From the NCBI GenBank assembly GCA_033439255.1, contig CM065884.1:2418001-2482000 (forward strand): a DNA stretch of 64,000 bases, given 5' to 3'. Under the pieces are notes generated by a model, which searched no databases, had not been told where the DNA came from, and worked only from the letters and a program-made list of their open reading frames with translations. Shown here in pieces: positions 25,367 to 63,027 of the stretch. The position numbers were made by a program, and so were the translations under genes. Positions within the stretch are counted from its first letter, which is position 1. Every line of letters begins with the position of its first letter. The stretch is from Hericium rajendrae (lineage: Eukaryota > Basidiomycota > Agaricomycetes > Russulales > Hericiaceae).

Positions 25367-26382
25367 CATCTGAGAAATTTACTACTGGTATATAAAGCTA
25401 TGTAGGCTATATAGCTTTCCTAGGTCCATAGCTGTCCTCTTTTCTACATAGCAGTCTCATAGCAGTCAAGTAATCTATGCATAGCTATCATAGCTTGCTA
25501 TAGCTACCATAGCATAGAGTCTAAACTATATAGCTGGTATAGCATAGAGTATAAGATATCATAGCTGCCATAGCTATTATAGTATAAAGTAACTATAAAA
25601 ACTATATCAAGTATATACTATATTACCATTGTGATATTATATCTAGCTAGTAAGATTTCTATCCACTCTATATCACTTTTGTCAAATATGTTGTTCCAAC
25701 ATATTAAAAACATTTTTTAGCTCAAAAATTTTATTCATCTTAATTACAAATATCAAAAGTTAAAAAATTATTATATTTTTCAGTCTTATTACAAAACATT
25801 ACTAAAGCCATAAAAACTACTAGATAACTACAACAGACAACAAACTTATAACAACTATAAAAAGCAAACATATAAATTAATAAAAAGATGTTAGTCTTAG
25901 ATGATGATGAACTTAACATAGAAGCTTACCACACTGACAAAAAAAAAGTGAAAACCTGCAAAAGCATTAAGACATAACATTGCTTACCTGATAAGCATAC
26001 AAAAGTACTATATAACAAGTACTATATAACAAGTACAAAAGCATTAGCATTTGACATCAGACATAAGAAACTAAGAATAAAAAAACATACCTGAACACAG
26101 AGCAACGAAGAAAGAGAGAAACAACAACAACAATGAACGAGAAACTGACGACAACAAGAGAAACAGCGACAGCGACAAGATAGGGAGCAACGGCAATGAG
26201 AGCAATGGCGACGAGGGAACAGCGACAAGGGAGGGAGCAATGGCGACAAGAGAGGTAGCGACAACAATGAGGGAGAGAGGGAGGCAGCGACAATGATAAG
26301 AAAGAGAACGACAACATCGACAATGACGTGGCAAGAGGGATGGCGGGGGTTTAGGAGCAAAAGGCAACGTGCATCATGCAAG

Positions 26383-26391
26383 CCTTATATA
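26383..26391 (-). promoter_or_regulatory. TATA box of leftward R transcript, copy 1
   Basis: On the minus strand the sequence reads GTATATAAGGCTTGC. The same TATATAAGGC word followed by a GYRCGAYG-type stretch occurs at the same place in copies 2 and 3. This is a promoter inference from conservation. Confidence 0.55.
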
Positions 26392-26774
26392 CGAATCCCA
26401 GACGAAGCCAAGAATCATGGCTGCCGAGCGTTGCCGAGCCCCGCATCAGAGACTAGGTGTTAGATTTCAATATCTTCACCATGCTGTCTAGTAGTATACC
26501 GTACGCTTGCTAGAAATGTAGCTCATGTAATGTACTTACATAAATGATACATAGTTTGATCCTTTTTCTCGTATTTCTAGCTGTTTTATTTGATTTGTTG
26601 TGTGTCTTCGTGCATTCGGTGGCTGAAGCCCCGAGTTAATGCGTCGAGACTTGCAACTTCTCACCCACTTTTCTTCTCTCTCCCTTCTCCCGGTTTCCTC
26701 TTTCCCCAGCTTTCTTTTATTCTCTGTCAACTATCAACACGGCCAAGGTGGATCTGCAGCAGGAAGGGCTATAG

Positions 26775-26845
26775 GTGAGTAAAAAGAAAAATCTCTGGTT
26801 ATCTTTTTGTGCTAACGAAGGGTGTCGCTCGATTTTGAGCGACAC
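26775..26845 (+). ncRNA. R copy 1: mini-intron and conserved hairpin of the rightward transcript
   Basis: The intron-like segment 26775-26820 begins GTGAGTAAAAA, has the branch-site-like TGCTAAC and ends AAG. It is followed at once by a hairpin with arms GTGTCGCTC (26822-26830) and GAGCGACAC (26837-26845) and a six-base loop. The same unit occurs at 47725-47800 and 60096-60169. In this copy a G-C pair replaces the A-T pair of the other two, so the structure and not just the sequence is kept. Confidence 0.6.
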
Positions 26846-28365
26846 TCATTCTTTCGACATCTCCACGTCTTCACTCGACACCCCACGACCCCCACCGCCC
26901 ATCATACGTCCCTGCCCCTTCACACTGCCCCCGCCGCCTTTCAACGACCTCGTCAACGATCTCGATTGCCCACGTGTGCTGCCTCAACACCCCGTGCTCG
27001 ATATGCCATGACACCCACACCCCGGTCTCCATTTTTGCATGCTCGGCCACCAACTATGCACACCCACTGACTATGCACACCCACCGACTATGCATGCCCA
27101 CCGTGCAGCACCTTCTGTGCTCCGTCAACGACGTGTGCAGACGTGGCCCATGTTGTCGAGTCCCGTTGCCATGGCAATGGGACTCGAACATCGTCCTTTC
27201 GTTGTCCGAACCCCTCAAGCATGCCCCGTCTGAACCCTTCCAGTGCCGTGTCACCAGCATGGCACCTGGCTCCAGCATCACCCCGCCTGCTCGCCTGATA
27301 ACCCCGCCCGTGCCCACAATGCCCCGCTTTCGCATGCATGCAATCACGTCCCACCCCACCCTCCCGTGTGCAGCCATCGCGCCTCGTGCACTGGCCTTCC
27401 ACATCATACATGGGCCCACAGCAACACAACAATTCGCTCATGCCCCCTGCCCATTGTGTGCGCCTGCACGCCTTGCACTTCCGGCACGCAGGCCTTCCGC
27501 ATCACGCAGGCCCCTGCACCTTGTTCGCAGAGCACGCCGCAGCTTGACGCTTCGTGCAGCCATTTTGTGCGTGTTCCGCAGGCCTTGCGCTGTCCTGCGA
27601 ACCTCGTGCGGCCTGCCAATGCCTCGCGCACTGGGCCGTCATACCCTAATGCCTCGCACATGCCCATCGTGCCTCACACATCTGCAGTGCCTCCCATATC
27701 TGGTGCGCGGGCCTGCCACGTCATGCAAGGACCTATGATGTTGCACAAGGCAGCGTGCTCGCTCTTTGTGCCTCGTGCCCACCGCCGGCCCCCATCTTGT
27801 GGTGCTTTCGATGTCTCGTGCCCAGCCCTCGTGCCTCATGCATGCGCCCCGCGCCTCGCACCCGCGTCCTGCTCTCCTGAGTGCGGCACCTATAGCTGCT
27901 CACCGACACCTCCCCGTGCCTCTCACACGGGCCCGCATTGCACGTCACACATGACTGCCATGTCGTGCACGAGCGACTGCCGTGCCACGCCTCGTGCATG
28001 TGCGCACCTTGTCACATGCTGCCCGTTGTAGTATACTTGCCTGTAATAGTAATTATATTCAATATAATTTTGATTTTGAAAATTTCGTACCTAAGTACCT
28101 AGTTGACTTGACATAGTACTAGTAGTACTCATAGTACTCATAGCTCATCTTACTAGGTATGATAGTGTATGGTAGTGCTATATATTTCAAACTGCTGGCT
28201 ATGGAAACTATGATAACACTATATAACTGACACTACTAGCTATGAAAGCTATGGAAGCTCTCATAGCTCTACATAGGTGGATAAGCAAACTACATAGCTC
28301 TGATAGCTCAGTCATAGCATCCATAATACAACCTGCAGCTATATAGAATTCAGTTTTCTCAGATG

Positions 28366-29486
28366 TATGCCAAGGACTCAATTTAAATATCTAAGATAGA
28401 AAAGATAAATGTATGAGAGATTGTCTGAGTATCAAAACTTAGTTGTAAACAGCAGAGAACTACTCAAGTTACCAACAATGATAAGAACAAGAGAGCAGAG
28501 AGTAACAAGTAGTGCAGTGAGTCACATCTATATTGAAGGTACAGTATAGTACAAATGATATGGACAATCAAAGAGCCTATAAGTACTAGAATGACAATGA
28601 AAAAAGAACAATGGATACTATAATAGATCAAACAATAGAGTGAGGATAAAGGTGATCAAATGAAGAACAATAAAAAGAAGATTAATAGTGTGTCTTAAAG
28701 GAGAACAAGGGCATGAGTGAAGGATAGCCTCAGATCATGTGAAAAAGTGAATATGTACAGTTTGGTGCAGAGATCATGACCATATTTAAGACAAAAACAC
28801 AAACAAAAGACACTATTTCAAGCATAAGTGATGGCACAGCTAAAATACATGATCAATGTGATGCTTTGATGGTAAAGAAGAAGGTAAAGAGAAATGAAGT
28901 GATCTGTAACAAGTAAGGCATCTTGCAATGCTGCTACAATACTATATGAGTGTGATGCAAGCAGCATATACTTAGTAGAAGTGCAGCATATACATTGTAT
29001 GCTTATATAATGTAAAGTGTTCAAATGTGATCTGAATTAGTCTTTCTTCTCTCTCTAAGAAATGTGCCTCAAAGTTATATCCTTTGAGATTACTTATAGC
29101 ATGTTTGCTCTAGTGACAAACTTGATGCTATATTGACATTGCTATATGACAAAAAAACAACACAAGTTACAAATCTGATCAGAACACTTTGTCTTGTTCT
29201 TAGCCATCAAGGCATTATATTGATCATACACTCTTGAAAATTTATTGAATGTTCATTTTCTCATATAATTTAGCTTATCCTTGATCTATATTCTTTATCC
29301 TATTTTTATTTATTTGATCATTATTGTTCTCACTTCCATTGTTTAATCTATTTCTGTGTCTATTGTTCTTTTTTTTATTGCTCATAGATTTTTTGTCACT
29401 CATCTATTTTTTAGACTGTTTATTTTGTTTATATAATACTGCATCTGCAATACAGATTACTACACTGCTTGATTTTTTTGCACATA
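28366..29486. other. AT-rich repeat-flanking sequence
   Basis: Low-complexity AT-rich DNA with short frames only. No domain and no recognisable repeat border was found. It may be the other side of the block split by R copy 1. Confidence 0.4.
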
Positions 29487-29697
29487 CATTAGAAAGGTTG
29501 ACAACTTTCTGCTAGACTTGTGAGCAATCTGAGAGCATCTGAGAGCATTTGATTGACCTGCAGATTTTCTGATCTTATCTGATGAGTGTCTGATTTATTT
29601 GTCAGACAAGATCAGAAAGTCTGCAGGTCAATCAGATGCTCTCAGATGCTCTCAGATTGCACACAAGTCTAGTAGAAAGTTGTCAACCTTCCTGATG
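29487..29697. mobile_element. fold-back MITE, 211 bp
   Basis: Almost the whole element is one inverted repeat with arms of about 95 bp. The left starts CATTAGAAAGGTTGACAAC and the right, read inward, CATCAGGAAGGTTGACAAC. TA lies on both sides (29485-29486 and 29698-29699), fitting Tc1/mariner-type insertion. The related element at 58246-58655 shares the terminal CATCAGGAANNTTGACAA. Confidence 0.85.
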
Positions 29698-30257
29698 TAC
29701 TCTCTTTATTGTTGGTAACTTGGATGACTATTTGCTATCTTATATTTATTGTCCTGCTGATAAAGTAAAATTTCTCTCTTTCTTTTTTTCTATGCTATAA
29801 GCCAATTTATCCTGCATTTATTTAGCAGGATTTTTTTTTGATACATTTTGCTTTTGGATCACATTAGCTTAATGCAATTGTCTTAAAGTGAAAATTGCCA
29901 AGATATCAATGTGACTGAGACCAATGTCCCAACAAGGCAGAGGTTTAAAAGAGCAGACATCTGATGGAACAATCTTGAGATTCAATGATTGAGCATTCAC
30001 TCTACTCTGCCTTAGGAAGACTAGTATGATGCTCAATTAGTCACTGTCATTGGCCAGGATTCTTATTGAATCTCAACTCTTTTAACCTTATAATGAGGCT
30101 GAAAAAAACCTTGTCAAGCAGGATGAATATTAAAAAACTTGAAACATTTGTTATACAGGTGAAGAACATCGGTAAAAACAGAGTCATAAAGAAGACAAAA
30201 TATATTCTGCAGTAAAACATTTCGTGGATGACACAGTATCCGCGAATAATTATTGAA
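29698..30257. other. spacer downstream of the RRM gene
   Basis: AT-rich DNA with no gene. Partial inverted similarity exists between GAGGTTTAAAAGAG (about 29939) and the reverse of CTCTTTTAACCTT (about 30078), perhaps a decayed small inverted-repeat element. It holds the 3' flank of the gene at 30258. Confidence 0.4.
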
Positions 30258-32020
30258 TCATAGCTCCAAAGGCTCATGAGACCGTGCTTCTAGCCCCCTA
30301 CTCCCACTTTCATTAACAGAAGCCCTTTCTCTACGACCTCCAAAACCTGTAAGTCCAGGACCTCGCGGTTGCCTAACAATACCGCTCATGGGACTATCAT
30401 TGCCACTACCGTTCACTGCTCCGGAAACGCTCGTAGGTAGCGTCGGCACCGGGGGAACGGAAGTCCCAAAAGCATTGCCGAATAGCGCACCAAATCCTCC
30501 TGGTGAGCGGCGAGAAGGAGAAGCAATCGTCGCATATCCTTCACGAATGTTCCCATTGGAAGAGCGTGTGTGGAGACGAGGGGCTTGCGTGTGTAGGGTT
30601 TTCATGTCTGGCATGGACTTCTTTGTACGCAATGTCTGTGCCACTGATGAGGATGTTGGAGAAAGGTAAGCCGAGGGTGTGCGTGTCAGGCTGGAATGGT
30701 TCATGCGAATTGCCTGTTGCCTCTACATCATCATTAACTACCATGGGAGAGGTCATGAAAATCGACGAACTTTCTCCGGATCATTCCGCGTGACGACCGC
30801 ATACCGGTCCTCGCCTTCTCCCATAGAGTAGTGATATACACCCAACTTCTGTGCCACAAGGTGTACAACTCGCCTCTGCTTAGAACTCAGTGTCCTAGAA
30901 AAAGCAAGCTCGTCCCGCATGTGATCATCTTTGAATAAAAGAATGCGAGAATATATCTCCAACGTGGATGGATCATTCAGATCCAGCTCATTCGATGATG
31001 CAGATTTCGAATTTATCGTAGGAGACTGCACCAGAGGTGGCGTCTGAACTGTGTAAGGTTGCGAAACTTGCGAAATCGGCGGTGAATACTGCTGCTGATA
31101 CGTTGCACCAGCAGAGAACGAGCGCTGAGGTGAGAATGGAGTTGGGATGATGGAATGGAGATCTTCATACTGCGACGGCTGGTTGCCTTGGTGAGCAGCT
31201 TGATGCTCTTTCTCCAATTGCATAGACCTCATGCGACGAATGGCCTTTTCCCTTTCAATGCGCTCTTTTTCCCCAGCTTGTAGAACCTTCTTGTATTCAA
31301 CGCGTAACTTGCGGCCTTGGACGTCGAACCCATTCAATGCGGCGACGACCGCATCCGCGTCGGACGCTTGCCGGAAATTGGCAAACGCCAATCCACGGAA
31401 AGAACCAGATTGGTCGAGGTGGTAATTGAAAGCATATGGAGTGGGGATGGATAAAGATGCCTGAAAAGGCGAATTATGAAGATTGAATGGTCACTGAGAC
31501 ACTATTATGTAACAGCACACGCACAATAATGTCCAATAAAGTCTCGCGTTTGACATTGAATGGGATGTTCTTGATGACGATGGCAGTGGGTATAATTTCA
31601 TCGTCAAAATTCTGTGAAGCCATTCCTGCGACATTGATTGGTGGTGAGCCTCGCCCAGAAGAAAGCTCAGAGTTGTTGGGAGGAGAGAGCGAGCCACTAT
31701 CATTTAAGACCGTCGGATTGTCCATCCATTGCTGACACGAATAAGAGATAAAGTCAGTGAAGGCGAATCACACGTTGCATTGTGTGGAAATGGCATACAG
31801 CAGGCAGCCCGCCACGCAGAGGCTTGTTTTTTGTGAGAGCTTGGTTCATATTCAAAGCACTGTGTTGACTTGGAAGAGGTGGAGAAGTCTGAAAGCGATA
31901 CTGGGATGATTCATTGCCGTTGTCGTCGTAGTCGTAAATGTCATGCAGACGTTGTTGGGAGGACCGAGAAGACAAAGACAACGAAGCAATATCCGGAGTG
32001 GAAGACGAACTGGTCATCAT
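30258..32020 (-). CDS. RRM and R3H RNA-binding protein, Pin4/Cip1-Cip2 type
   Basis: Proteins of this family (budding yeast Pin4, fission yeast Cip1/Cip2) bind mRNA and link stress or DNA-damage signalling to transcript stability. The start at 32020 gives MMTSSSSTPDIASLSLSSRS. Exons join through introns near 31.73-31.80, 31.46-31.52 and 30.70-30.76 kb. The RRM reads IPTAIVIKNIPFNVKRETLL and then SGSFRGLAFANFRQASDAD and LNGFDVQGRKLRVEYKKVL. The R3H-like domain follows (DELAFSRTLSSKQRRVVHLV, KLGVYHYSMGEGEDRYAVVT). The N- and C-terminal parts are long, disordered and Ser/Pro/Gly-rich, and the end is HEPLEL. Neighbour spacing and intact exons suggest a working gene. The exact orthologue among Pin4-like proteins is inferred. 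Confidence 0.88.
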
Positions 32021-40870: not shown

Positions 40871-41089
40871 CGTGCATGTCCCACCAAAATTGACTGCCTG
40901 ATGCAGATGTGTGTCCCGATGACACCAGAAATCAAGTTTTCAATGGGACATGCTCCCCTGTCAGCGAAAGGTGCTGGCCCTGGCCCAGCCAAAAGAGCGT
41001 GTCTCGTGAAAGCTTAAGGGGCATGCTCGGCAACGTGCTGAGCATGCCGAGTGCAGTTCTCGATGTGATGCAGGCACGAACTTAGGTAA
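40871..41089 (+). repeat. 0.7-kb repeat, left part of a unit split by the composite transposon
   Basis: The sequence from about 40871 to TTAGGTAA at 41089 matches the middle of the 0.7-kb unit (GACTGCCTGATGCAGATGTG; CATGCTCGGCAACGTGC; GAACTTAGGTAA). The same unit resumes at 50286. The beginning of this unit is missing or too diverged to see. Confidence 0.8.
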
Positions 41090-41572
41090 CACTGCAGGCA
41101 TAGCCCAATTTTATGCTGAAGAACATGTAAAGAATGTTGAAGCAAAAATGTTAAAACAGCACTAGATATAATGCTAGAGAAAATTGGAGGAAGATCTGAG
41201 ATTATCTGAGGAAACTTCATTGTCTGTTCTGGGACAGACATTATTGAGTCTTCTTTCAATATTCTTTCAAGATCTTTTCTCTAGGAAGACTTATGATATT
41301 CTTTGGTTTTTCTCATGTGTTTATTGTTATGGAGAATTATCAATATTGCAGCATTTTCTGTGGCATTTAATTCAAGATATTCCACTGATCTATAAAATAT
41401 AAGCTGATGCCTAAGATGTCAAATCAGACTGTACTGAAAACTTGTAGTGAATATCTCCTTGTACTTTGAATCTTCCTTCAAACATGCTTCTCACACTATT
41501 AGAAAGTCATTTCTGATTTTCAAAACACAAAAGCTCAAAAAGAATCTATACGGAATGTAAAGTCTGCTATTA

Positions 41573-44449: not shown

Positions 44450-46830
44450 GGCTACATATGGCATTCAGGCTACATATAACAAGAGGAGACACGACAAAAT
44501 AGAATGAGAACTTGAGGATGACAGAAATCATGACTGAGTGAGAATAATTGACGTATAATGTCCAAGACAGGTCCAAGGTCCAAGAATGAAAGAGAATGGT
44601 ATCAAGAAAACAGTCATTTACCCAGCTTGAGCAGCCTATTTCATGGTGGCGACTCTCATCTCAGCAATAGCACCCATCTTGAAACCCATCGAGTGCAAGT
44701 TGTCAAGAGAGATATGACCAAATGTATGTGAGCCTGTATACTCATTTTCTGTGAGAAGGTCACCAACACTGGTCAGGAGGTGATATGCTTCGCAGAATTC
44801 AGCTACTGTCATCTGGCACCCAAGAGTGTGACCTTGCGGCAGAAGCATTTCTACCTTCAGAGCCAGATTCGTAGCATTGTCACCTGTAGCACTCATCGAG
44901 CCTTGTGTGAGATGCAGGATCTCTACTGGAAGATTCCAGACATTTGTGATAGGTGGCTGCAAGGGTGCAGCTGTGGGCGCAGCATTCTCCTTTGAAGATG
45001 AAGCTTCACACTCACATGCATGTCGCTGAAGCAAGGATGGAGCACCGAGAGAGTGAGTGGGCAGGGCATCGAACAACCAGTGATTGAGTGGCTTGTCCAA
45101 CGTACTAGTAGCTAATGTGTCATCCTTCTTGAGCTGACAGAAGTCACCAGTTAGCTATGCAATATGAAATTGTCTCAAACAATGTACCAGGGCAGATGCC
45201 CAGACATCTATATGATTCATACCAAGCGCGAGATGCTCGTTATCATCAGGATTGACAAAGCAACAGCCAGGAGTGGGACAGCCAGGTTTCTGGCATGTCC
45301 AGCGATTCTTGAGCATCTGAATTTGTTGCCAAAGAGGTTCATCTTCAACATTCAGGTCTGAAGCATGTGGAATCTATGGTGATGTTGTATTAGTAAATGT
45401 TCAGAGCAAAAGACAATACATACTTTTGTTTTGGCTTTCTTTGGGGCCTTCTTCATCTTCATCTTTGCCTTCTGCTTTGCTTCTGGTCCACTGATGTTGC
45501 TGTTGTCTGAACTGTCATCGCTCACCATCTTGGACTTTCAGCTCTTCTTGGTGCATTCTGCCTTGTTGCTATTGCCCTGTTGCTTGACCTGACCATGCTT
45601 CTTCCATTTCTATAAAAGTAGTTAGTAGTGAATCCAAGTTGAATAACAGTGCATATAGTCTACCTTTTTCATCACATGAACTCGTTCAGTGACGTCCAGA
45701 TTGATCGTAACAGTGTCTGACCATGCCCCGACTGCGCACTTGACCATGTTTTGGTAATCTTCAGATGAGTGAACAGGAAGAGATGCGGTCGAGATGTGAG
45801 AAATGGTGAAGAAGATGGAGTAGTCATCGAGAATGATGTCCTGTCTTTCAAGCCAGACAGAGATCTTCTCAAGGAGCATGCATCTGAAAAATTTGCCAGT
45901 GGTACATAGCTCTATAAAGTCTACATAGATCTCCTAGCTTCATAGTATCGCCCTTTATTGTATAGCCCACATAGCCAAAGGGTGATGCTATGGAGTGCTA
46001 TGAGGCTCAAAGGTGATGCTATGGAGTGCTATGGAGTGCTATCATAGCTATGAGAGCTGACTATGTAGCTATGATAGTATGACTAACTATCAAAGCTATC
46101 AGTATCTATCAAAGCTATAAGGCTTATGTGTCTTATATATCCTATATTCAATATGTGTCTCACATAACCTATGTATAATATATGTGAGACATATCCTACA
46201 TTCAATATGTGTCTCATATATCTTATATTTAATATATAGATCTGATATACATATTAAAGCAATAAAATTTATTAGAACTTTTAATCTTTTCTACAATCAT
46301 ATCAAAATTAATAACATATGATCACACAGATTTAGAATATTTCAAAGCATCAAGATTATATTGATAATACAAACACTACTACTAACCAAAAAGTGAAAAT
46401 ATAAGTAAGAAAATAAAAAGATAAGATAAGATAATAATAAGATAAGATAAGATAATACAAGAAGATAAGAAGATAAGAAGATAAGATAAGATAAGTAAAA
46501 GGTCATAAGATAAGAGAATATAAGAAACTAAGTAAGAAAAGATAAGAAAACATGAGTCTTAGAAGATAAAAATAACATATAAGAACTTACCAAAGTAACA
46601 AAAAGCAAAATCTAAGAAACTAACTTGAAGACATTAGTATTAGTATAAGCAATAAGAGACCAACAATCCCTTAAAGACAGCAACAACGAGCAAGAAACAA
46701 CGAGCAAGCAGAAAACAATGACGAGCAAGCAAAAAAACAACGATGAACAAGCAAACAACATCGACGAAGGCATCGACGTGACAAGAGATAGTGGGAGTTA
46801 AAGAGCAAGAGGCAGCGTGCGTCGCGTGAG

Positions 46831-46839
46831 CCTTATATA
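46831..46839 (-). promoter_or_regulatory. TATA box of leftward R transcript, copy 2
   Basis: On the minus strand the sequence reads GGATTCGTATATAAGGCTC, almost identical to copy 1. The downstream pyrimidine-rich leader is also shared. Confidence 0.55.
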
Positions 46840-47724
46840 CGAATCCTGGGCGGAGCCGGGATTCGTGGCTGCTGGGCACTTGCCGAGCATCGCGTCAGAG
46901 ACTGGGGCCAGACTCCATTACATGGACCTTGGCTCTCTGTGAGCTTGATGTATAGTAGATACTTACAATGCTCATTCATTCGAATCACATTTACAACTTA
47001 TGGCTCTACTGTTTTTTTTCTAAATTTGTGTAATTTTTCTTGATTTGTGGTGGTTCGAGAAATGTAGCTTCGCTCGTTCGGTGGCTGAAGCACCGAAACG
47101 CACGTCGAAGTTTGTCTCTCGCTGTCTCCACCACATCCACTCTCCACTCTGTAACGGATGGTTTATCAGTTACTACTATAGTCTTCTACTTTCTTACTCT
47201 TTTCTACCTGACTTACTTTTCGAGTTTTGCAGAGTTTCCTTATTAGGATAGCTGAGTTTGAATCATGTACTTAGAGCGGATTTCCTTATTGGGAATAAGC
47301 ATCTATCTTGCCAACTCACCACCATCTGTCTGCTTTTGTCTCAGTCTCTGCTTGTTCTCCTCATATCTGAAAGGTTCACTTGGGATCCAACCCTCAAAGG
47401 AAGGTGTGTGGCCCCCAAAACCCTCATCAGGAGGTCTATATCTGCTGCTGGCCCTCAGAGGAGGTGCCAGCTCATCGCTCATCTGCTTGGCTGCAGGACT
47501 GAGGCATCCTCGGTTCTGTTAGCTTTAGCTTGTGGACTCTCTCTAGGAGGTCTACGACACCTTTATACCCTCCTCACTTGCTCGCCTACCTTGGACTTCC
47601 TGGGCAGTAGCGGCTCGACCTCTATCATCCGTTACACACTCTCCTCCCTCCACCCTCCTACTCTCCCTCTAACTCGTCAAACCGCATGCAGGAGGGACTC
47701 AGGCGGATGCAGAGGGTCTCGACG

Positions 47725-47800
47725 GTGAGTAAAAAATACTTTTATTTCGTTTATTTGTGCTAATGTCGAGAGTATCGCTTGTTCGAGCGATACTCTCGAC
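47725..47800 (+). ncRNA. R copy 2: mini-intron and conserved hairpin
   Basis: The intron 47725-47770 (46 bp) begins GTGAGTAAAAA, has GTGCTAAT as branch-like site and ends GAG. The hairpin has perfect 15-bp arms, GTCGAGAGTATCGCT (47765-47779) and AGCGATACTCTCGAC (47786-47800), around a six-base loop. It overlaps the 3' splice site. Confidence 0.6.
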
Positions 47801-50285
47801 TTCTTTCATTCTCCCATGCCCTCACTCCCCCTCGCCTCTGACTGCCGCCCCTCCCGCATCACCTTGCCCTCCACTGACCTCGCCACCTTGCCATCACGTC
47901 GCTAGCGCCTGGCGCACCGCCTCCAATGGTCACGATCAGTGGAGTGCGCCTGATCGTCCACGACCCGGGATGGGCATGCCAGCACACGCACGTCGCATGT
48001 GGCCCCCTCCATCCGCGTGACCGTCTACGCCATCGTGCCTCCCGCGCATGCCTGCCGCGCTGCGCACGGGCCCGCGACAGCCCTGCATCTCGGTCACGTC
48101 TCTCATCCCTCACGTGTGGACCAGCTGCCTGCCGCGCCTTGTGCACGCTACCGAATGCCCCGCGCATGTCGTTCAGTGCCTCATGCATGGGCCTGCTGCC
48201 GTGTCTCGTGCACGCAGGCCTGACGCATCGCCCATGAGCCTGCAACCACCCAGCACCTCGTGCACGGACCCGCAGCAGCCCGGCACCTCGTGCACGCCTC
48301 GTCCCAGGCCCGCTGCCCCCGACGCTTCGCACACACCTCCCCGCGTGCCTCGCGTCTCCCACGTGCAGGTTGCAGTGTCGCGCACGGGCCCACTGCTGCC
48401 CACGCCTCGTGTGGGTCCCTCGCGCCTCGTGCGGGTTGCCCTCGCCTTGTGTGGGTCGCCCTCACCTCATGCACGTCACCCTCGCCTCGCGCACGTCGCC
48501 GTCGACCTCGTGCACGTCACCATCGCCCTCACACCATCGCCCTCACCCTTGTGCACGTTGTTGTCGCCCTCATGCACGTCGTCTGCCCACACACACGTCA
48601 TCTGCACCATGCGAACATCCTCTGCGCCACGCGAACGGTCCCTGTGCCTCGGGAATGGTCCCCGCGCCACGCGCACGTTCCATTGCGAACGGTCCCCGTG
48701 TTCTGCATCTCCCGCGTGCAGGCTTGCTGCATAACGCAGGCCCGCCCTATCGTGCACGAGCCTCACAGCATGCGACTCTCGTGCACGGGTCCCGGGCTTC
48801 ACGTGCACCATTGCACCTCACGTGCAGTGTTGTGCATACCAGTCACGCCCTTGCGCATGCACGCCTTGTCACACCTCGCAGGCATACATGTAACTTAGTG
48901 TACTTGATTGTTGTAGTAGTTAAATATAATTTAATTTGACCTGTTTTGAGTATAGTATCAATATCATAGACTCTACATTAACTGTAGATATTATAGCAGA
49001 CTAAAGCTCTGTATGGAACATGGTATCTATAGGATACATAGAGGGAGACTAGAAATATATAAGTTACATAGCAGGCATAGTAATGTCCTATTACTATGTA
49101 ATACTATGTACCCATCACCCATGACTATGATAGCTATGATAGCTACCATAGTCCTGTATAGCTGTGTGGCCCAACTACATAGCAGCCATAGCACTATGAT
49201 ACCAGACATAGCATTGGCTGGCAGCTATGTAGATTTCAGATTTTTCAGATGTGTGCTTGTACTCCTCCATCATGGTGATACTTGTTAGCTTCATGTACAT
49301 ATTGAGCTTGGCTTGTTTCTTCCTTTCCTTGTTGACTTCAGAGACAGGGATCACGGTGACATTGTACATGAGTGTCTTGCCCTTGTTGGATGACTTTTTT
49401 GCTGCTGTGAGACCTGAGCAACTTGAATGGTGCAAGCATATATACATGTCTACTTACCTTTCTTCTTAGCTACTGGAGGCCGTGGGCTTGGAGGATTGCT
49501 AATGAGTTCGATGTCACTGTCTGCCTTGAGCTTGCCAGAGGCTAAGATCTTAGCCAAAGTGAGAGGGAAAAGAGTCTCAGATTCACTTGGAGGATAGGAA
49601 AGAGCATCAGAGTGGTTAGATATCAGTTCATCCTGCTCTGATGAGGGCTCAGGGCTTTCAGACATTATATATGGCACATAGGATAGTGGCAAGAGGCAGG
49701 ATGCACATCGCATTGTGTCGAAAGCCCGATTTGGTGAAGTTGCGATGACACCATGAGAATTCTCACCACGGCGTGACCTGTCATCCTTTCTGCAAATGGC
49801 TGTAATAGCAGACTTTACATTCTGTATAGATTCTTTTTGAGCTTTTGTGTTCTGAAAATCAGAAATGACTTTCTAATAGTGTGAGAAGCATGTTTGAAGG
49901 AAGATTCAAAGTACAAGGAGATATTCACTACAAGTTTTCAGTACAGTCTGATTTGACATCTTAGGCATCAGCTTATATTTTATAGATTAGTGGAATATCT
50001 TGAATTAAATGCCACAGAAAATGCTGCAATATTGATAATTCTCCATAACAATAAACACATGAGAAAAACCAAAGAATATCATAAGTCTTCCTAGAGAAAA
50101 GATCTTGAAAGAATATTGAAAGAAGACTCAATAATGTCTGTCTCAGAACAGACAATGAAGTTTTCTCAGATAATCTCAGATCTTCCTCCAATTTTCTCTG
50201 ACATTATATCTAGTGCTGTTTTAACATCTTTGCTCCAATATTCTTCACATATTCTTCGGCATAAAATTGGGCTATTCCCACAGTG

Positions 50286-51968
50286 TAAATGGGTCAGGTT
50301 TGACAAAAATGGCGACTTGGACACATTTTTGCACCCTCCCTTTTGCGTGAAAAATCTCATTTTTCGCCAGCAGGCAGTTTCACATCAGGACCACGTTCCT
50401 GTCAGAAATCGCTATGGTAGAGTGAGTATCAAGTGACTTGCACCATGGATGATGTCCGGAGACAGTCGCCAGGCATCTCGGGCGAGGGTCGGACTGTTAG
50501 GACCCTGACATAAGCTGACTAAGTACGTGTCCCATTGGGATCTAAGGATAGCATAGTGTCGACAGGACATGGCGGGTTGGCAGGGGTGCTGACTAATAGC
50601 ATGTCCCGGGACACGATGCAGGCACGTGAGGTGGCAGCAGATCGGGGAGGCATCGGGCGACGTCTGCAACAGCGACCGAGGTGACGGGGGCGTATCAGAG
50701 ACAGCGGAGATGACCGGCAGACCTGCACACCAAGGCGGGGGGTGAGAAATAAATTTTGATGGATTTTAGCACCACCAGGAATGCTGGTATCGACTGCCCG
50801 ATGCAGATGTGTGTCCTGATGACACCAGAAATCGAGTTTTCAATGGGACATGCTCCTCTGCCAGCGGAAGGTGCCGGCTCAGCCAAAAGAGCATGTCCCG
50901 TGAAAGCTTAAGGTGCTATATTTTCAACAGGACATGCTCAGCAACGTGTCAAACATGCCGAGTGCAGTTTTCGACGTGATGCGGGCATGAACTTAGGTAA
51001 ATGGATCAGGTTCGGCAAAAATGATGACTCAGACACATTTTCGTGCCCTCCCCTTTGCGCGAAAAATCCCATTTTTCGCCAGCAGGCAGTTGTACATCGG
51101 GACCACGTTCATGCCAAAAATCGCGGTGGCAGAGCGAGTATCGAGCGACTTGCGCCGCGGACGATGTCCGGCGGCAGTCGCCGGGCATCTCGGGCGAGGG
51201 TCGGACTAGGGTTAGGACCCTGACATAAGCTGACTAAGTGCGTGTCCCGTTGCAATCTAAACATAGCTTAGTGTTCATGGGACACGAAGGGTTGGCGGGG
51301 GCGCTGACTAACAGCGTGTCCCGGGACACGATGCGGCACGTGATGCCGCGGCGGGTCGGGGAGGCGTCGGGCGACGCTCGCGACGGCGACCGAGGCGGCG
51401 GGCACACGTCGGGGACGGCGAGGACGACCGAGGGACCCGCGCACCGAGGCGACGGGGCGGGAAATGAATTTTGATGGATTTTAGCGCCGCGGGGGACGCC
51501 GGAATCGACTGCCCAATGTGGCTGCGTGTCCCAAGGGCACGAGAAATCGAGTTTTTCATGGGACACGATCCCCTGCCAGCGGAAGGCGCCGGGCCAGCCA
51601 AAATAGCATGTCCCATGGATGCCTAAAGTCCTGTTTTTTCTCTGGGACACGCTCGGCAGCGTGCGGAGCAGGGTTCTCGACGTGATGCGGGCAGGAACTT
51701 AGGTAAAAGGGCCAGATTCGGCAAAAATGGCGACTCGGACGCGTTTTCGCGCCCTCCCCTTTGCGTGAAAAATCTCATTTTTCGCCCGCACGTAGCTACC
51801 TATCGGGTCCATGTCCCTGCCAAAAATCGCGGTGGAAGAGGGAGTATCGAGCGACTTGCGCCGTGGACGACGTCCGGAGGCGGTCGCCGGGCATCTCGGG
51901 CGAGGGTCGGACTAGGGTTAGGACCCTGACTAAGCTGACTCACACCGTGTCCCAGCGCGTTCTAAACA
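50286..51968 (+). repeat. tandem array of the 0.7-kb repeat (one partial and two whole units)
   Basis: The units are the tail of the interrupted unit (50286 to about 50547), then 50556-51263 and 51272-51968, separated by an 8-bp TAGCTTAG-like spacer. Each unit contains many GGGACACG/CGTGTCCC words in both orientations, a GGGTTAGGACCCTGAC block and a conserved AATGAATTTTGATGGATTTTA segment. The last unit is GC-rich and may be the youngest. The middle unit shows many CG-to-TG/CA changes. Frames of up to 138 codons are side effects of composition. Confidence 0.85.
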
Positions 51969-52171
51969 TAGCTTTGTGCGATCGGCCGCAAATCCGGATC
52001 TCGGGTAACCGGAGATCCCGAAATATCGGTGGCAGCACCCGATCAGATGGCTGGCAGTGTAGACTTCACAGATGAGTAAGACGATTTGACTGATTGTTTA
52101 CAGGAGACGCGGTCCATAACCAGATGGACGTCGCTCGGTGAAACTTGGGACATAGGACCTACAAGTTATCC

Positions 52172-53270: not shown

Positions 53271-53442
53271 GCCAGTGAATAAATATCAGATACTGTTTGC
53301 TCCGGAAGGCTAGACAAGCATCTGGATACATTGACATGGTCAGAGCTTGCTCAAATGTGTGATGAGGACATCTAGACTAGCAAAGAGAAGACCTCGCAAT
53401 GCCATTGCCACGGAACAACTCTTTCCAGACCCCTCTTTTGAG

Positions 53443-56209: not shown

Positions 56210-56941
56210 GATAGGGAGTAAGTAGACTGGACGAGTGAAATAAGGATTCACAGGCAAGATAAACTCAGTGAGTACTAGTGACTCGAGAGGCTCCGAGACA
56301 GTCGGATAGGCGACTCAAAGATGTTTGACATATTACATAAGCACATTCGACTCCACGGGCCGCCTCTGGAGCGGCTTCGTTCAGGACCCCCGCAAATTCC
56401 GGCAAGTCGAGTTAAGTATAGGTGGGCATTCTTAGTTTGGACCGAAAAAGAATTAATTAATTTGAAAAGAATTAAGTAACGATAGCGCCGGCTTCGCGGC
56501 AAGGCCCACTACCCTCAGTTGGAACTTGGAAAGTGGCAGACAGAGATTATGCTGATGCAATTTTTCATTTGAAAGAGGCTAATGTTCGATACATTGGAGA
56601 ATGTAGGCCAGTCACAATACTCGCATGAAATCCATTCCTTGCAAAGTGATGTGACATCAGCAACATCAATTTGAATATATTTTGTGAGGACATTGTGCAC
56701 ATCAGCACATAGCAAGGCAAGAAGAGTCTAAAGCAGAGTTCAGACTAGTGCACAGCCATCAAAGTTTAAATCTCCTGCAAAAAGTGAAAACACATTTAGC
56801 ATCCCTATAGACCCACTATCTTAAAAAATAGCAGGGATCAATTCAAGGCAGCATGCCTTGCAAGTAAGGCTCTAACTATTTTGTTTATCTACTGTGTAAA
56901 AATGATTTTTACTGTTTTTTTTTTTTTTAATTACTATCTAT
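56210..56941. other. PDX1 promoter region and spacer
   Basis: The start of the region must hold the PDX1 promoter. No TATA box or other gene is clear, and a long T run at about 56914-56928 precedes the repeat cluster. Confidence 0.45.
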
Positions 56942-57035
56942 CATCAGGAACCTTGACAACTTTCTGATTGACCTGCAGTGTCTGACAGAATCTGGTGCAA
57001 GTCAAATTAGATGTATCAGACAGTTTCAGAGAGCT
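56942..57035 (+). mobile_element. left end of a CATCAGG-type MITE
   Basis: The sequence CATCAGGAACCTTGACAACT and the following TTGACCTGCAGTGTCTGACAG closely match the left end of the element at 58246. The other half is absent, and R-type arm sequence follows directly, which suggests interruption or deletion. Confidence 0.65.
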
Positions 57036-57040
57036 ATGTA

Positions 57041-58193
57041 TATCAAGAAGAGAAGATGTAGTATGTATATTTGACATAGCTTTGATAGTTAAGATAGTAT
57101 ACATATAGTCCATAGCTAATGTAGCTATCCTTGTATGCTATGATAACTATGATAACTGCACCTTTGAGCTATGGTAGCTATGATAGCTATGATAGCTCTA
57201 TATAGATGACCCTGCATCTATGGCTAGGCTATACATAAAAGGACACTGCTATGAACCTATCAAAGCTATATAGCTGACATAGCTCTATATAACAGTGATA
57301 ATTTTTTCAGATGCTGTCTTGACTGTTGTTAGAAGGAGGAGTAAAGCAAGGAGAGCAAGGGGAACCAGAGAAGGACAGAGTGAGCAAGGGAGGAGGTGAA
57401 GACTGAGCAAATGAGATGTCTTGATGTGAGTTGGCCACCGAACGAGTAAGTCAAAGTTTCTCATAATGTAGCAAATCAAATAAAATCTGTATAATTACAA
57501 AACAAAACATAATATTGTAGAATAGTAATCTACATAGATTGAATGAGCTGAATATCTACATAATGTAGCACACAAGACTGAATGGCAGAGTCAAAGTTAT
57601 CATGTCTGCTACTTAGCCTCTAACACGGCACTCGGCAATGCCTAGTAGACATGATTCTTGGCTTCGCTCAGAATTTGTATATAAAGCTTGCATGATGCAC
57701 GTTACCTTTTGCTTTTTACCCCCACCATGTCTTGCCATGTTGACACTTTGTCGTCGTCATTTGCTTGCTTATCACTGTTGCTTGCTTGCTCGTTGCTGCT
57801 ATCTCTAAGGAAAGCTTTTATTCTTTCTCTTCATCAGGTAAATCTGTTTTTTACATAGCTTCCAGCCAATGATATGACTCTTATGATAGTACTATGAACC
57901 CTATGTATTTTGACAGCACAGCTATACTTGGGGAAAGTGGGCCGATGCTTCACACGGCAAGACAATTCCTTTTTTTTATTAGTTACATTTAACTTGGAAG
58001 AAGAGGGGTGATGCTTCACATAACAAGATGATTTTTTTCAATTGTTAGTTATATTTAGAATAGTGTATAAATGAGTAAAGTCTTACTGGTCAGATTGATT
58101 ATAAATTGTGGCTCAATTACATAGCAGCTATAGCACTATGAAACTAGGCATAGCGTTGGCTAGCAGCTATGTAGATTTTACATTTTTGAGATG
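57041..58193 (-). mobile_element. R-family element, rearranged and shortened copy
   Basis: The stretch 57120-57313 matches an inverted R left arm and ends ATTTTTTCAGATG. 57420-57445 carries the exon motif inverted (GGCCACCGAAC), and 57678-57685 a plus-strand TATA box followed by GCTTGCATGATGCACG as in copy 1. 58087-58193 is about 87% identical by eye to the right end of copy 2 (CAGCTATGTAGATTT). The GC-rich core, intron and hairpin are missing. The order and orientation of parts do not match one simple copy, so recombination between copies is likely. Confidence 0.6.
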
Positions 58194-58245
58194 GCTGCAC
58201 ATCTATGCTCATATATGCTGCTACACTGTTAAGTTATATATACTA

Positions 58246-58655
58246 CATCAGGAACCTTGACAATTTTCTGATGGGTCTGACAGTGTCTGACAGTACTTGT
58301 GCAAGTCAAATCAGATGCATCAGACAGTATCAGATAGCTGTTAGTTAAATCAGACAGCATTAGACTCTATCAGACACTATCAGCTAAATGGACATGCAAA
58401 TGCTGTAGAGATTGCTCAGAATGTTCTCAGATTTGTGAAAATATCAAATATTAGAAATTTTATTATGATATATAATTAGAGATGGATAACTCCTATAGTG
58501 AACAATAGGTGTCCACTCTTAAATGTATAAGCTAAATCAGATGTGATCATTTGAAAAGTGGCTGCAGACAGATCAGACTCTATGAGCTCTATCAGATACT
58601 GTCAGACACTGTTAGACACTGCAGGTCAATCAGAAAATTGTCAAAGTTCCTGATG
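58246..58655. mobile_element. CATCAGG-type MITE, 410 bp
   Basis: The ends are CATCAGGAACCTTGACAATT on the left and CATCAGGAACTTTGACAATT inward from the right. TA lies at 58244-58245 and 58656-58657. The interior has many CAGACACTGTCAGA-like words and no coding potential. It belongs to the same family as 29487-29697 and the fragment at 56942. Confidence 0.82.
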
Positions 58656-59691
58656 TATATAACACTATTATCAGAGTTATAGCATCATTGGTTGAAAGTT
58701 TAGTACAAAGAAAACTCATTTTTTGGACATACAAAATTGACTTTTTTAAACATTTAATTCAATGTTTTTGAGTGTAAAAGTTGATTCTACATGTAATATA
58801 TCCATCTGAGAAATTTAACAGTGGTATATAGCACTATGTAGCCTATATAGCTCTGATAGGGCCATAGCAGTCTCTTTTTCTACATAGCACTCTATAGCAG
58901 CAAGACAATCTATATAGAGCTATCATAGTACTCTATAGCAGTAAGACAATCTATACAGGACTATCATAGCTATCATGGGGTAAGGTAGTAACTATCATAA
59001 TTATCATAGTTATCTGTTATAAGATGATAACTATTATAACTGCCATAACATATGATGATTATTATAGCTATATTAGCTATGTGGTATATCCTTAGTATCA
59101 TATTATATGCAGCTAGTTAGACTATTATTGACTCTATATCATCTTTACCAACAATGTTACTCAAAAGATGCTAATTATAAGACATCTCAGATATTCAAAA
59201 CATCGAAAATTTAAAAGCATTATATTTCAAGTAATATTTGATTATAATACATCTACAAATATTACTAGCAAATCTATGATACACTATAAGATATAGTAAG
59301 ACTGTAAGATAAAGACAAGATAAGATAAAAGATAAGATAAAGATAAAACTTACTGTCAAGATAAGAAAAAGCAAAAATGATCTACAAAAGAAGTCAACAA
59401 ATTAGTATCACAAAATAAAATAAAAACATAAGGCTTACCTAATGGAAATAAAAGCGAAAATGAAGTCTATGAAGAACATTAGGGTTAAAAACAATCAAAC
59501 AAAATAACAACATACCAAAGAAAATAAAAAAGTGAAAATGCAAAGGCTATAGAAAAAAACATAAGGTTAAATACAATAAAACAAGAATACAACATATCAA
59601 ACATAAGAAGATTAAAGCAAAAGAGAAGAGAGTGACGAGAGATGAGAGATGGTGGTGGTAGGGAAGAGAGAGAGCAAGCACATCGTGCACG

Positions 59692-59700
59692 CCTTATATA
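59692..59700 (-). promoter_or_regulatory. TATA box of leftward R transcript, copy 3
   Basis: The minus strand reads CTATATAAGGCGTGC at the place matching copies 1 and 2, followed by the same kind of pyrimidine-rich leader. Confidence 0.5.
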
Positions 59701-60095
59701 GACGTGGTGAGCGCCAAATGTGAGTGACGTGACTCGGCCCGGGTGCTGCCGGAACACTGCATCAGAGGCTAAGGTGGTAGACATCATTAAGTTCGTGTTG
59801 CTGCCTGGTAGCCTGTAGTACAGTAGCTAGGTAGTTAGCTCATGCAATCAAATTATATTGGTAAATTGTATACAACGTCTTTTTCTTGAATTTGTGGCTA
59901 TTTTATTTTATTTGCTAAGCTTGAGACATTTGAACTCACCTGTGTTCGGTGGCTGAATGCGTGTCAAAAGTTTGAATGTTCAACTCAAGCTTCGACCACC
60001 ACTACTTACCTCTCCCTCTCCTCCTCCCTTCTGTCTGTCCTCTCCCATCAAACCGAACACTGAAGGAGGGTAGCGGGATGCTGAGGGCCCTGCAG

Positions 60096-60169
60096 GTGAG
60101 TAAAAAAAACCTCTATACATTTTTTTTCGTACTAACTCAGAGAGTATCGCTCATTTGAGTGATACTCTC
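60096..60169 (+). ncRNA. R copy 3: mini-intron and conserved hairpin
   Basis: The intron 60096-60140 (45 bp) starts GTGAGTAAAAA, has the branch-like TACTAAC and ends TCAG. The hairpin arms are GAGAGTATCGCTC (60140-60152) and GAGTGATACTCTC (60157-60169). One position is a G-T pair, which is stable only in RNA of this strand. Confidence 0.6.
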
Positions 60170-61617
60170 ACCACCTTTCGCCCTTGCAGGCCTCCCTCAT
60201 CACCATTCCTCGCTGCCACCCCTCCCTCGTCGACTCCCCATCTCCCGACATTGCCCCCACAAACCATCGGATGATGCACGCCCCTTCGCGCATGGGCCAG
60301 GCATGCCAGTGCATGCACAGCCGGTGGGTGGCCATGGCCATGTGCGGGCACATCAGCCAGCACACACATGCATGCACGTCGTGCGTGGCCATGCGAGGCA
60401 TGCTTGCACGCAGGCCCTGGGGCCTCTGTGCAGGCCTCTGCATTGCGCACGAGCCTGATGCCTCGCACATGCCCGCTATGCCCTGCCGCACCCACCGCAC
60501 CCTGCATACAAGCCAGCACCCAGAGGATGCCTGCCATACCTCGTGTACGGGCCCACAGCAGTCCAGCACCCCGCGCATGCTCCCCGTGCCTTGTCCACAC
60601 TCCTGCGCCTCGCCCACACCCTCTACACTCTCGCCTATGCTTCCTGTGCCCTGCTCATGCCCTCTGCGCCTTGCTCACATCCCCTGCGCCTCACTCACGT
60701 CCCCCACATCTCACTCACGTCCTCCACACCTTGCTCATGCCTCCCACGGCATCCCCGGGGCCCACGATGCCTGTTGTATCCCGCGGATGCCCACCATATC
60801 TCGCGGATGCCCGCCGCACCTCGTGGATGATGCCACACCACATACAATGCTGCCATGCCTGCAATATCTCGTGCACAAGCCAGCAGGAGCCCTGTGCCCC
60901 GTGCAACATCTGGCGTGCCTTGTGCATGGCCACCGGACCCTGACACGTCACTCATGCCTGCTGCTTCGCGCACGGGCCTGCCACACCCTGGCGACTCGAG
61001 CACGCCTGCCGCCGTGCCCCACCGTACCTTGCACATACCCTCCATCTTGCATATGAGCCCACCGCAGCCCGATGCTGGTGTGCATAGCCTTGGCGCTTTC
61101 CGTACCTTGTGCACAGACCTAATGCCTCGCGGATAGACCAACGCCTCGCACACGGGCCTAGCGCCTCATAGATAGGCCTGCTGTGCTGCACGCATGACTC
61201 CTGTGCCCCGCATGCCTGCTGCACCCTGTGCACTTGAGCACGCTTGTCCGTGTGGCATGCGTTGTTCATATTAGTAGTGTAATTGATTGTACTACTAGCC
61301 ACATTAAATATAATTGATTTTATTGTACTTAATTGACTTCTAAGGTAGTAATAATAGTATTCATATCTCACTTACTGTAGGGATCATAAGGACCATAGGG
61401 ACCATAGCAAGCCAGTGAATTTATATAGCAGCTATAGCTGCCCCTTAGAAATATATAGCACTATATAGTGTCTAACTACTGCTATATAAGCTATGATAGG
61501 CCTCATAGCCTTATATAGTTGAGAAAGATAGCTACATAGATGATGATAGACCTAATAACATTATGATAGGACATATAAATGAACACTAGACTATATAAAA
61601 TTTTAATTTCTCAGATG

Positions 61618-62995: not shown

Positions 62996-63027
62996 TAAAT
63001 GGCTGTTAACAGGTAGATCACATAATT

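Follow-up and report, generated by a model that had tools for sequence, protein, structure and literature searches.

The three repeated elements in the analysed stretch of Hericium rajendrae DNA (64,000 nucleotides, hereafter the window) are members of a large family, R, whose copies mostly measure 2.7–3.4 kb. The CNOT1 of this genome is 98% identical to that of Hericium alpestre. We give roughly even weight to the reading that R and F2, a sister family, are non-autonomous DNA transposons whose ends resemble those of Plavaka and which carry a conserved non-coding module, putatively transcribed and spliced, with a probable role in cis. A preliminary description of this DNA had proposed a mobile element that encodes no protein and whose product may be RNA; its observation was confirmed and its interpretation was partly supported, an RNA product being plausible.

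Anatomy of the three copies in the window

All three full copies that had been described are present, with ends CATCTGARAAA and flanking 2-bp target site duplications (TSDs) TA, TG and TC. The inverted ends reported as shared are so only in part, as the left ends all carry the full CATCTGARAAATTT and the right ends diverge after 11–12 bases. Each copy contains a minus-strand TATA box, read on the plus strand as CCTTATATA, followed by the 13-bp motif TTCGGTGGCTGAA, an intron-like stretch of 45–46 bp, a hairpin and a GC-rich core of about 1 kb:

25367–28365, plus: R copy 1, 2,999 bp; TSD TA at 25365–25366 and 28366–28367
25367–25380, plus: left terminal inverted repeat of copy 1, CATCTGAGAAATTT
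28352–28365, minus: right terminal inverted repeat of copy 1, minus-strand reading CATCTGAGAAAACT
26383–26391, minus: TATA box of copy 1, TATATAAGG; a conserved block in the group 1 alignment
26615–26627, plus: TTCGGTGGCTGAA motif of copy 1, within TTCGGTGGCTGAAGCACCGAA in many relatives
26775–26820, plus: putative 46-nt intron of copy 1, GTGAGT..GCTAAC..AAG
26820–26847, plus: hairpin of copy 1, 12-bp stem, starting at the putative acceptor
26871–28020, plus: C/CpG-rich core of copy 1, 20-bp period
45881–49251, plus: R copy 2, 3,371 bp including a nested insertion; TSD TG
46831–46839, minus: TATA box of copy 2
47077–47089, plus: TTCGGTGGCTGAA motif of copy 2
47150–47636, no strand assigned: nested solo-LTR-like repeat in copy 2, TGTAACGG..CCGTTACA, 5-bp TSD CACTC; not part of R
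47725–47770, plus: putative 46-nt intron of copy 2
47765–47800, plus: hairpin of copy 2, 14–16 bp stem containing the putative acceptor AG
47801–48880, plus: C/CpG-rich core of copy 2, 20-bp period
58803–61617, plus: R copy 3, 2,815 bp; TSD TC; within a duplicated segment of at least 5.2 kb
59692–59700, minus: TATA box of copy 3; second match to the plus-strand reading at 61509
59945–59957, plus: TTCGGTGGCTGAA motif of copy 3
60096–60140, plus: putative 45-nt intron of copy 3
60140–60169, plus: hairpin of copy 3, 13-bp stem, starting at the putative acceptor
60171–61260, plus: C/CpG-rich core of copy 3, 20-bp period

The solo-LTR-like repeat inside copy 2 is a separate high-copy repeat, and without it this copy measures about 2.88 kb. 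Copies 1 and 3 each lie within larger duplicated segments, and their nearest relatives are thus not independent insertions. We note that the minus side of R carries repeated GTAAG..CTAAT..AG units.

R is a family of DNA transposons

A genome-wide search for the exact R end motif returned 167 matches against none for the reversed control, and TTCGGTGGCTGAA was found 210 times against once. Exact hairpin-arm matches numbered 498 and 121, compared with 7 and 11 in controls; a perfect hairpin contributes two arm matches. AT-rich arms and repetitive cores can mimic such signals, but the end and motif counts refute a chance or low-complexity artefact, to which we assign negligible probability.

The 2-bp TSD is identical on both sides in 18 of 21 R copies (14 of 17 once copies with shared flanks are counted a single time), against a chance expectation of 1/16, and in both F2 copies; the ends of L046, F2a and F2d were chosen from scans with the TSD required or in view, which favours a match. 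The three mismatched R rows include the sole CATCAG copy, and a search for R duplications of 3, 4, 5, 8 and 9 bp found none. Among 18 elements tried, empty sites were recovered for two insertions: that of L032 lies in L007 (161 bp, 96.9% identity, no gap), and L035, an R inserted in R, has its unoccupied site in L003, L007, L008 and L010 (78–79%, one gap). Since the duplications match and empty sites exist, R is a DNA transposon, which bears out the mobility proposed earlier.

In length, 20 of the 21 rows fall between 2.7 and 3.4 kb, L067 reaching 5.8 kb, and the termini are CATCTG..CAGATG in 20 of 21, with CATCAG at both ends of L049; the left end of F2a is also CATCAG. Many insertions have distinct flanks. 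Differences between close copies are nearly all transitions (217:8, 84:2 and 167:10), which suggests methylation-type decay.

A conserved unit of putative intron and hairpin

The landmarks had been described as keeping their order while the sequence between them diverged, and an alignment of copies agrees. Between and within subfamilies, respectively, identity was 0.61 and 0.79 for the intron, 0.66 and 0.89 for the hairpin, 0.44 and 0.78 upstream and 0.35 and 0.70 downstream (24 of 36 units, in three subfamilies); across subfamilies the unit has thus kept more of its sequence than the DNA on either side of it. The intron-like stretch holds GTRAGT, then CTAAY as a branch-like site, then AG, ordered and spaced as in an intron and in a single orientation relative to the promoter and array. 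Stem positions are paired in 97.2% of cases and 5 of 14 pairs show changes on both sides; none of 500 shuffles was as high for either value or for the covariation score, and 20 of 500 reached the observed number of pair types, in controls that ignore the relatedness of copies. We note that the units behind the splice-signal, identity and covariation results were collected with a pattern that demands both a stem and a start resembling a splice site, so that these two features look more conserved than they are. Paired differences between subfamilies include GTATC/GATAC, GTGTC/GACAC and GTCTC/GAGAC. Some copies, such as L064 and L067, have broken stems.

These observations bear on whether the module might simply be a repeat moved by recombination or gene conversion and amplified by segmental duplication, homogenised rather than selected. 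Copies 1 and 3 do lie in duplicated segments, the array is repetitive and elements are nested, with an F2 end by an R end in L055 and a Plavaka element by an R arm in L063. Homogenisation, however, does not predict paired stem changes between subfamilies, and the many insertions with distinct flanks also argue against such passive spread, which we consider very unlikely.

A covariance model built from 36 units gave the three window units as its best window matches (E 2e-13 to 3e-16), all three being in the training set; the remaining three window matches were these hairpins again, in minus-strand reading. RNA folding z values for the three window units were -4.7, -4.7 and -3.4. In an Rfam search over seven loci, all seven matches were to miRNA-precursor models below the gathering score and none fell on the unit, which rules out a ribozyme or known RNA family as its identity at these loci. 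The hairpin had no match in viral contigs.

The unit recurs in a second family with a related array

The intron and hairpin unit is present in a second family, F2, as well as in R. It was found in all eight fetched hairpin loci without the exact TTCGG motif, four of them R-like and four F2. In three of the four F2 loci the covariance model detected a further unit, on the other strand (E 6e-8 to 2e-6), and these F2 matches involved no pattern filter. The F2 promoter carries an CCATATATGG box in all four loci. F2 and R can be nested: in L055 an F2 end lies against a 21-bp piece of an R end.

The GC-rich core, present in the three copies as described, is a degenerate 20-bp repeat. Lag 20 was the best of 65 lags in all seven cores, with lag 22 nearly equal in copy 1, and period 20 outscored 17–19 and 21–23. 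The array units of R and F2 correlate at r 0.53–0.57, compared with 0.28–0.34 for the next-best phase and 0.31–0.37 for the best reverse complement; the two cores are related 20-bp-period arrays. The 20-bp period, F2 and its two divergent units are absent from the preliminary description. The left half of F2d (L053) was rejected as a captured gene: its 236-aa frame gave no candidate at E <= 0.001 among 483, and of four F2d frames compared with Pfam two had no match and two matched only far below the cut-off.

The conserved stem could also be read at the DNA level, as a palindrome bound by a transposase subunit or host factor, with the splice-like signals part of the site or incidental and RNA uninvolved. 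The hairpin is indeed a near-perfect DNA palindrome, and F2 carries 36-bp DNA palindromes in addition to its promoter box. Transitions leaving G-U or A-C are both tolerated; G-U cells outnumber A-C mismatch cells 33:14 in 52 hairpins, but only 10:6 when counted by distinct position and type, in a list that includes a few opposite-strand or chance rows. A binding site alone, however, fits poorly with splice-like elements kept in intron order and spacing and in one orientation to promoter and array, or with the repeated intron-like units on the minus side of R, and we regard this explanation as unlikely.

Transposase and relation to Plavaka

The genome contains 132 Plavaka transposase matches, fragments included. 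Within the 23 R and F2 copies for which both ends were read, there was no match to PF18759, the transposase that marks PlavakaB, or to PF02992 (positions compared by eye). Among the loci read, which took in a minority of the Plavaka loci, no relative with such ends, full-length or otherwise, was found to bear a transposase. The only Plavaka with both ends mapped differs from R at its termini (CATCAGGAACCC) and is rich in TCTGA on its 3' side. That R termini are Plavaka termini had first been suggested by Plavaka elements adjoining R arms, end inward (L048 and L063). A second copy of the L048 Plavaka (L065, 99.93% identical) stops exactly at CATCAGGAACCC; the L048 element had therefore inserted into R and was rejected as its autonomous partner. 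Judging by its CATCAGGA-type end, the L063 Plavaka is probably likewise a separate element.

As described earlier, no protein was found in the elements. Core frames are open through composition, and the two that were scanned had no Pfam match. In the longest core frame, copy 3 and L038 differ at 33, 39 and 51 sites at first, second and third codon positions and show indels of 3 and 2; we note the slight third-position excess. Other candidate partners showed no association with R: Transposase_21 has 31 genome matches, and KDZ has at least 172 elsewhere in the genome. One Transposase_21 match sits 3.5 kb inward of an R end (C4:721471 and 724933). A PF07282 (TnpB-type) protein was rejected as partner, with no genome match in a search that was positive in 6 of 14 control genomes and could miss divergent Fanzors.

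Non-autonomous elements normally originate from autonomous ones, and fungal transposase genes often have short introns. R and F2 could be deletion derivatives that retain, as promoter, intron and hairpin, the 5' leader of an autonomous ancestor's transposase gene, the coding part having been replaced by the repeat array and the module having no present role; an R-type transposase may be absent from the assembly or sit at loci outside those read. Against this stand the copies free of PF18759 and PF02992, the core frames without Pfam match, the occurrence of the module in two families, twice in three of four F2 loci and followed by the same array type, and its better preservation between subfamilies than that of adjoining sequence. 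We consider a relic leader a serious possibility, if still an unlikely one.

Comparison with known elements

The earlier remark that no known superfamily was recognised with this set of features is not supported: the CATCTG/CATCAG ends and the 2-bp duplications are like those of PlavakaB, a group of the CMC/CACTA clade in Agaricomycotina with ends CATCA..TGATG and a 2–3 bp TSD (PMC12730594). R is similar to PlavakaB in its CATC-initial ends, in its TSD (18 of 21 R and both F2 copies), in short repeats towards the ends and in a host genome where Plavaka matches abound; it differs in its mostly CATCTG ends, in having no detected transposase and in the intron-hairpin module and 20-bp array. Its arms are rich in CTATAGC, whereas the Plavaka read in the same genome has TCTGA repeats instead. 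The same source gives CACTA/EnSpm 5'-CAC..GTG-3' ends with a 3-bp TSD and KDZ/Zisupton an 8-bp TSD (PMC12730594). The CATCTG ends and 2-bp TSD of R set it apart from the former, and its TSD length from the latter.

Maize En/Spm, a CACTA element, resembles R in two respects, its subterminal repeats, which run in both orientations, and the GC-rich repeats that lie downstream of its promoter; it differs by its CACTA ends, its 3-bp duplications and its proteins, and we know of no conserved intron-hairpin in it. MITEs are short (under about 0.8 kb) and derive from a known autonomous element, unlike R, which is mostly 2.7–3.4 kb and for which no autonomous parent was found. Structured non-coding RNAs encoded in DNA transposons exist in bacteria, namely the omega-RNA of IS200/IS605 and the bridge RNA of IS110, which guide a protein of their own element. 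R differs from these in that no protein of its own was found, TnpB/Fanzor-type proteins included, and in its putative eukaryotic splicing. Among mushrooms, Marasmius oreades has active non-autonomous, non-coding elements (MarorhAT-4, -11 and -12, and MarorTcMar-21), of which the MarorhAT elements have ends in common with an autonomous partner (PMC9674265). Unlike R, these are hAT or Tc1/mariner relatives, and the accessible part of the report mentions neither a conserved transcript unit nor a hairpin (PMC9674265). Among the papers listed, titles and abstract openings pointed to no relevant literature on a spliced non-coding inverted-repeat element of fungi.

A probable cis-acting module and its implications

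In our preferred reading of R and F2 as non-autonomous transposons with a cis-acting module, a Plavaka/CMC-type transposase would move both in trans. The module would comprise a promoter, a short exon, an intron of about 45 nt, a 12–16 bp hairpin from the 3' splice site and a C/CpG-rich 20-bp array, with one module per R and usually two divergent ones per F2; this anatomy is visible in the DNA, and its transcription and splicing are predicted from it. Single copies decay while lineages retain the module, so it is probably required in cis if an element is to serve as a good source of further copies. By the most likely route, transcription and splicing through the module would keep the chromatin of the element open, or would tether its nascent RNA to a protein assisting the transposase, with the acceptor hairpin as the site for that protein or as a switch for splicing and the array as a CpG platform; this route is the weakest step of the scheme.

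Taken together, the data suggest that a non-coding RNA or DNA signal helps R and F2 persist. The stricter proposal is that these eukaryotic cut-and-paste transposons, served in trans by a DDE-type transposase, rely in cis for their own spread on a non-coding RNA that is structured and spliced (intron, acceptor-side hairpin and 20-nt array). It is in our view quite unlikely; if true, it would be a eukaryotic counterpart, in logic, of RNA-dependent bacterial insertion sequences.

In non-coding DNA transposons only the ends are expected to be kept, and to our knowledge no model of Plavaka/CACTA-type transposition includes a cis-acting internal function. The maintenance of intron-like stretch, hairpin and array between lineages, in two many-copy families whose copies decay, implies such a function. 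The finding would tie splicing, DNA methylation (through the CpG-rich array and transition-biased decay) and transposon success together in mushrooms.

R elements in the window and in the genome

Re-reading of the sequence confirmed the three copies of the R element family proposed in the preliminary description, at the same coordinates, and located their ends and 2-bp duplications, minus-strand TATA boxes, TTCGGTGGCTGAA motifs, intron-like stretches, hairpins and GC-rich cores where that description had placed them. These copies and other repeats of the window are as follows:

25367-28365, R copy 1
45881-49251, R copy 2
47150-47636, solo-LTR-like repeat within R copy 2
58803-61617, R copy 3
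24144-24410, minus strand, R relic (c2-type left arm, ending at 24410)
57313-57683 and 58107-58198, R fragments directly left of copy 3
8885-9592, 40889-41572 and 50244-51978, another repeat, with tandem units of ~712 bp at 50-52 kb and no kinship to R as far as seen
62411-63694, 159 bp tandem repeats and a 774-bp duplication

The window also carries a CCR4-NOT subunit 1 gene. A 588-aa open frame of this gene shares 98% identity with a protein of Hericium alpestre, while identity is 70% or less for the remaining 119 matches listed, which places the host, a wood-decay mushroom, in Hericium or close to it.

In the genome searched (19 contigs, 46.8-Mb, including the window), the R end motif CATCTGARAAATTT was counted 167 times versus 0 when reversed, and TTCGGTGGCTGAA 210 times versus 1 in the control; the hairpin arm GAGTATCGCTCG and its variant GAGTGTCGCTCG gave 498 versus 7 and 121 versus 11. 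Since these counts are far above the controls, the R landmarks exceed chance. Searches with the three copies as queries returned at least 83, at least 83 and at least 91 matching stretches, with 40 candidates scored per search.

A second family, F2

Eight hairpin loci without the exact TTCGG motif were fetched, and all of them contain the unit formed by the intron-like stretch and the hairpin. Diverged R elements account for four of the loci, L049 with CATCAG ends among them; the other four (L051, L053, L055 and L056) represent a separate element, F2, with CATCTGGAAAAA or CATCAGGAAAAAGT ends and CTACAG-rich arms. The two fully read F2 elements have target site duplications (TSDs) GA and TC and lengths of 4,015 and 3,457 bp. 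F2 loci carry two or three 36-bp palindromes of GTGGGAACTGTTTTGCTGCAGCAAAACAGTTCCCAC type each (up to nine substitutions allowed), the palindrome core being found at 61 places in the genome versus 0 reversed. A central CCATATATGG box, which we take to be CArG-like, is present in all four F2 promoters (L056 being C2:1810160-1814160). In three of the four loci a covariance model detected a second unit, on the other strand of the divergent promoter; the same scan found none in L053 (F2d), whose left half (557-1264) is non-repetitive and holds a 236-aa open frame with no homologs at E <= 0.001 among 483 candidates.

The intron-hairpin unit

A GGTGAGTAA-like site (at most 1 mismatch) was found within 600 bases at 29 of the 35 motif sites of the fetched loci. 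Four of the six exceptions (L007, L008, L020 and L021) have no such site nearby, yet contain the unit by covariance model; in L027 (copy 2) a nested insertion adds distance, and the sixth is one motif site in L035.

The DNA anatomy of the module (promoter, short putative exon, unit, then C/CpG-rich array) is conserved in the two families, with compensatory changes in the stem. Alignment of 36 units displayed a GTRAGT start (ATGAGT in one), a CTAAY-like branch site and AG. The stem, with up to 14 aligned pairs, starts at or includes the putative acceptor; 97.2% of its 492 cells are paired, and both sides have changed in 5 of the 14 pairs. Its covariation score was reached by none of 500 shuffles and its number of pair types by 20 of 500, in shuffles that ignore relatedness.

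For 24 of the 36 units, belonging to three subfamilies, identity between subfamilies was 0.61 for the intron and 0.66 for the hairpin, versus 0.44 for the upstream and 0.35 for the downstream flank. The corresponding values within subfamilies were 0.79 and 0.89 versus 0.78 and 0.70; shuffling gave a floor of 0.22-0.26 for the two flanks. The higher between-subfamily identity of intron and hairpin indicates that the unit has been kept between lineages, part of this conservation being built in by the splice-site and stem pattern used to find units. That the unit is kept between lineages while single copies (L064, L067) lose it argues for a cis role in source elements.

On the minus strand of the R left half, the TATA box is followed by a variable pyrimidine-rich leader and then by GTAAG..CTAAT..AG units with short exon-like blocks between them. 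This pattern is recognisable in groups 1 and 3, although individual copies have lost some of the sites. A window scan found no intron-hairpin unit on this side of the three R copies.

The 20-bp array

Lag 20 gave the highest self-match of 65 lags in all seven cores compared (three R, three F2 right and one F2 left), with a narrow margin in copy 1. In a phase model of three cores per class, period 20 performed better than 17-19 and 21-23 for R, F2 right and F2 left, with four random starts for period 20 and two for the other periods. The 20-bp consensus is CTCGCGCATGCCCCCCGCGC in R, CTCCCGCGCGCCCGCGCCGA in F2 right and, on the transcript strand, CTCGCGCACGCCCCCGCCGA in F2 left. R and F2 profiles correlate at 0.53-0.57 at one phase, versus 0.28-0.34 at the next best and 0.31-0.37 for the best reverse complement. 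In the nine cores measured, the transcript strand of the arrays is rich in C, with observed/expected values of 0.69-1.16 for CpG and 1.56-2.44 for TpG; judged by a Pfam scan of two core frames and by codon-position differences, the arrays are not coding.

Mobility and decay

R and F2 have the ends and duplications of transposons, and empty sites were seen for two R insertions. The 2-bp flanks match in 18 of 21 R copies with both ends read (TA, TT, CA, TG, AT, TC, CG or AA; the exceptions are L029, L045 and L049), or in 14 of 17 when shared-flank copies enter once, and in the two F2 elements that could be read at both ends. For L046, F2a and F2d, the ends were chosen in scans with a duplication required or in view; all others were set by alignment extents. 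The one Plavaka element in the same comparison has unequal flanks. In a comparison of all fetched DNA with the flanks of 18 elements, joined as if unoccupied, the empty site of L032 was found in L007 (161 bp, 96.9%, gap-free, 41 bp past the junction). For L035, an R element nested in another, L003, L007, L008 and L010 carry the unoccupied version (78-79%, one gap), as does the window at 57449-57683 (75%). Matches for copy 3 (L037) were discarded, being its own left junction and those of close copies.

Copy 1 and L002, as well as copy 3 and L038, have common flanks (matches of 3.7 and 5.2 kb); copies 1 and 3 therefore also spread through larger duplications. Three R copies (L066, L067 and L016+L064) have an identical 8-bp left flank and AA duplication and adjoin Plavaka sequence at three places, where a larger repeat may carry R along. 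The solo-LTR-like repeat of copy 2 (TGTAACGG..CCGTTACA, TSD CACTC) has at least 19 near-identical copies (98-99%) among the matches listed; several form pairs at a distance of ~4.65 kb (C4:1287198 and 1291843, for example), a spacing expected of two retrotransposon LTRs.

Transitions and transversions between close-copy R pairs numbered 217:8, 84:2 and 167:10, and 53-68% of the transitions fall at CpG in one copy. Judging from this excess, largely at CpG, single R copies look like methylated, decaying residents.

Relationship to Plavaka and possible role of the module

The genome is rich in both KDZ and Plavaka matches, with 132 to PF18759 (Plavaka), fragments counted, and at least 172 to PF18758 (KDZ transposase domain). 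PlavakaB elements of mushrooms have CATCA..TGATG ends and 2-3 bp duplications (PMC12730594). The sole Plavaka with both ends mapped (L048+L062, C12:962500-976500) spans 9.66-kb, with CATCAGGAACCC at either end and perfect CATCAGGAACCCTTGGAACT ends; its transposase gene is followed by ~1.2 kb of TCTGA repeats, and this copy lacks a TSD. CATCWGRAA-type ends are therefore common to R, F2 and Plavaka, but their arms differ. No transposase-bearing element with R or F2 ends was found among the loci read, which take in a minority of the Plavaka loci; a Plavaka-type transposase would be supplied in trans.

The module is probably transcribed and spliced, and would act in cis. Transposon transcripts that are spliced inefficiently serve as siRNA templates in another basidiomycete (SCANR; PMC5851062), and splicing could thus matter for R and F2. 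One hypothesis is that a short, efficient intron offers a way past a SCANR-like check, controlled by the acceptor-side hairpin. We found no description of such families with an intron-hairpin module in the open-licence literature searched. The two families, R and F2, are real and large; they consist of non-coding transposons in which an intron-hairpin module is conserved. Their transposon features mark them as a known kind in variant form, and it is the module that is surprising.
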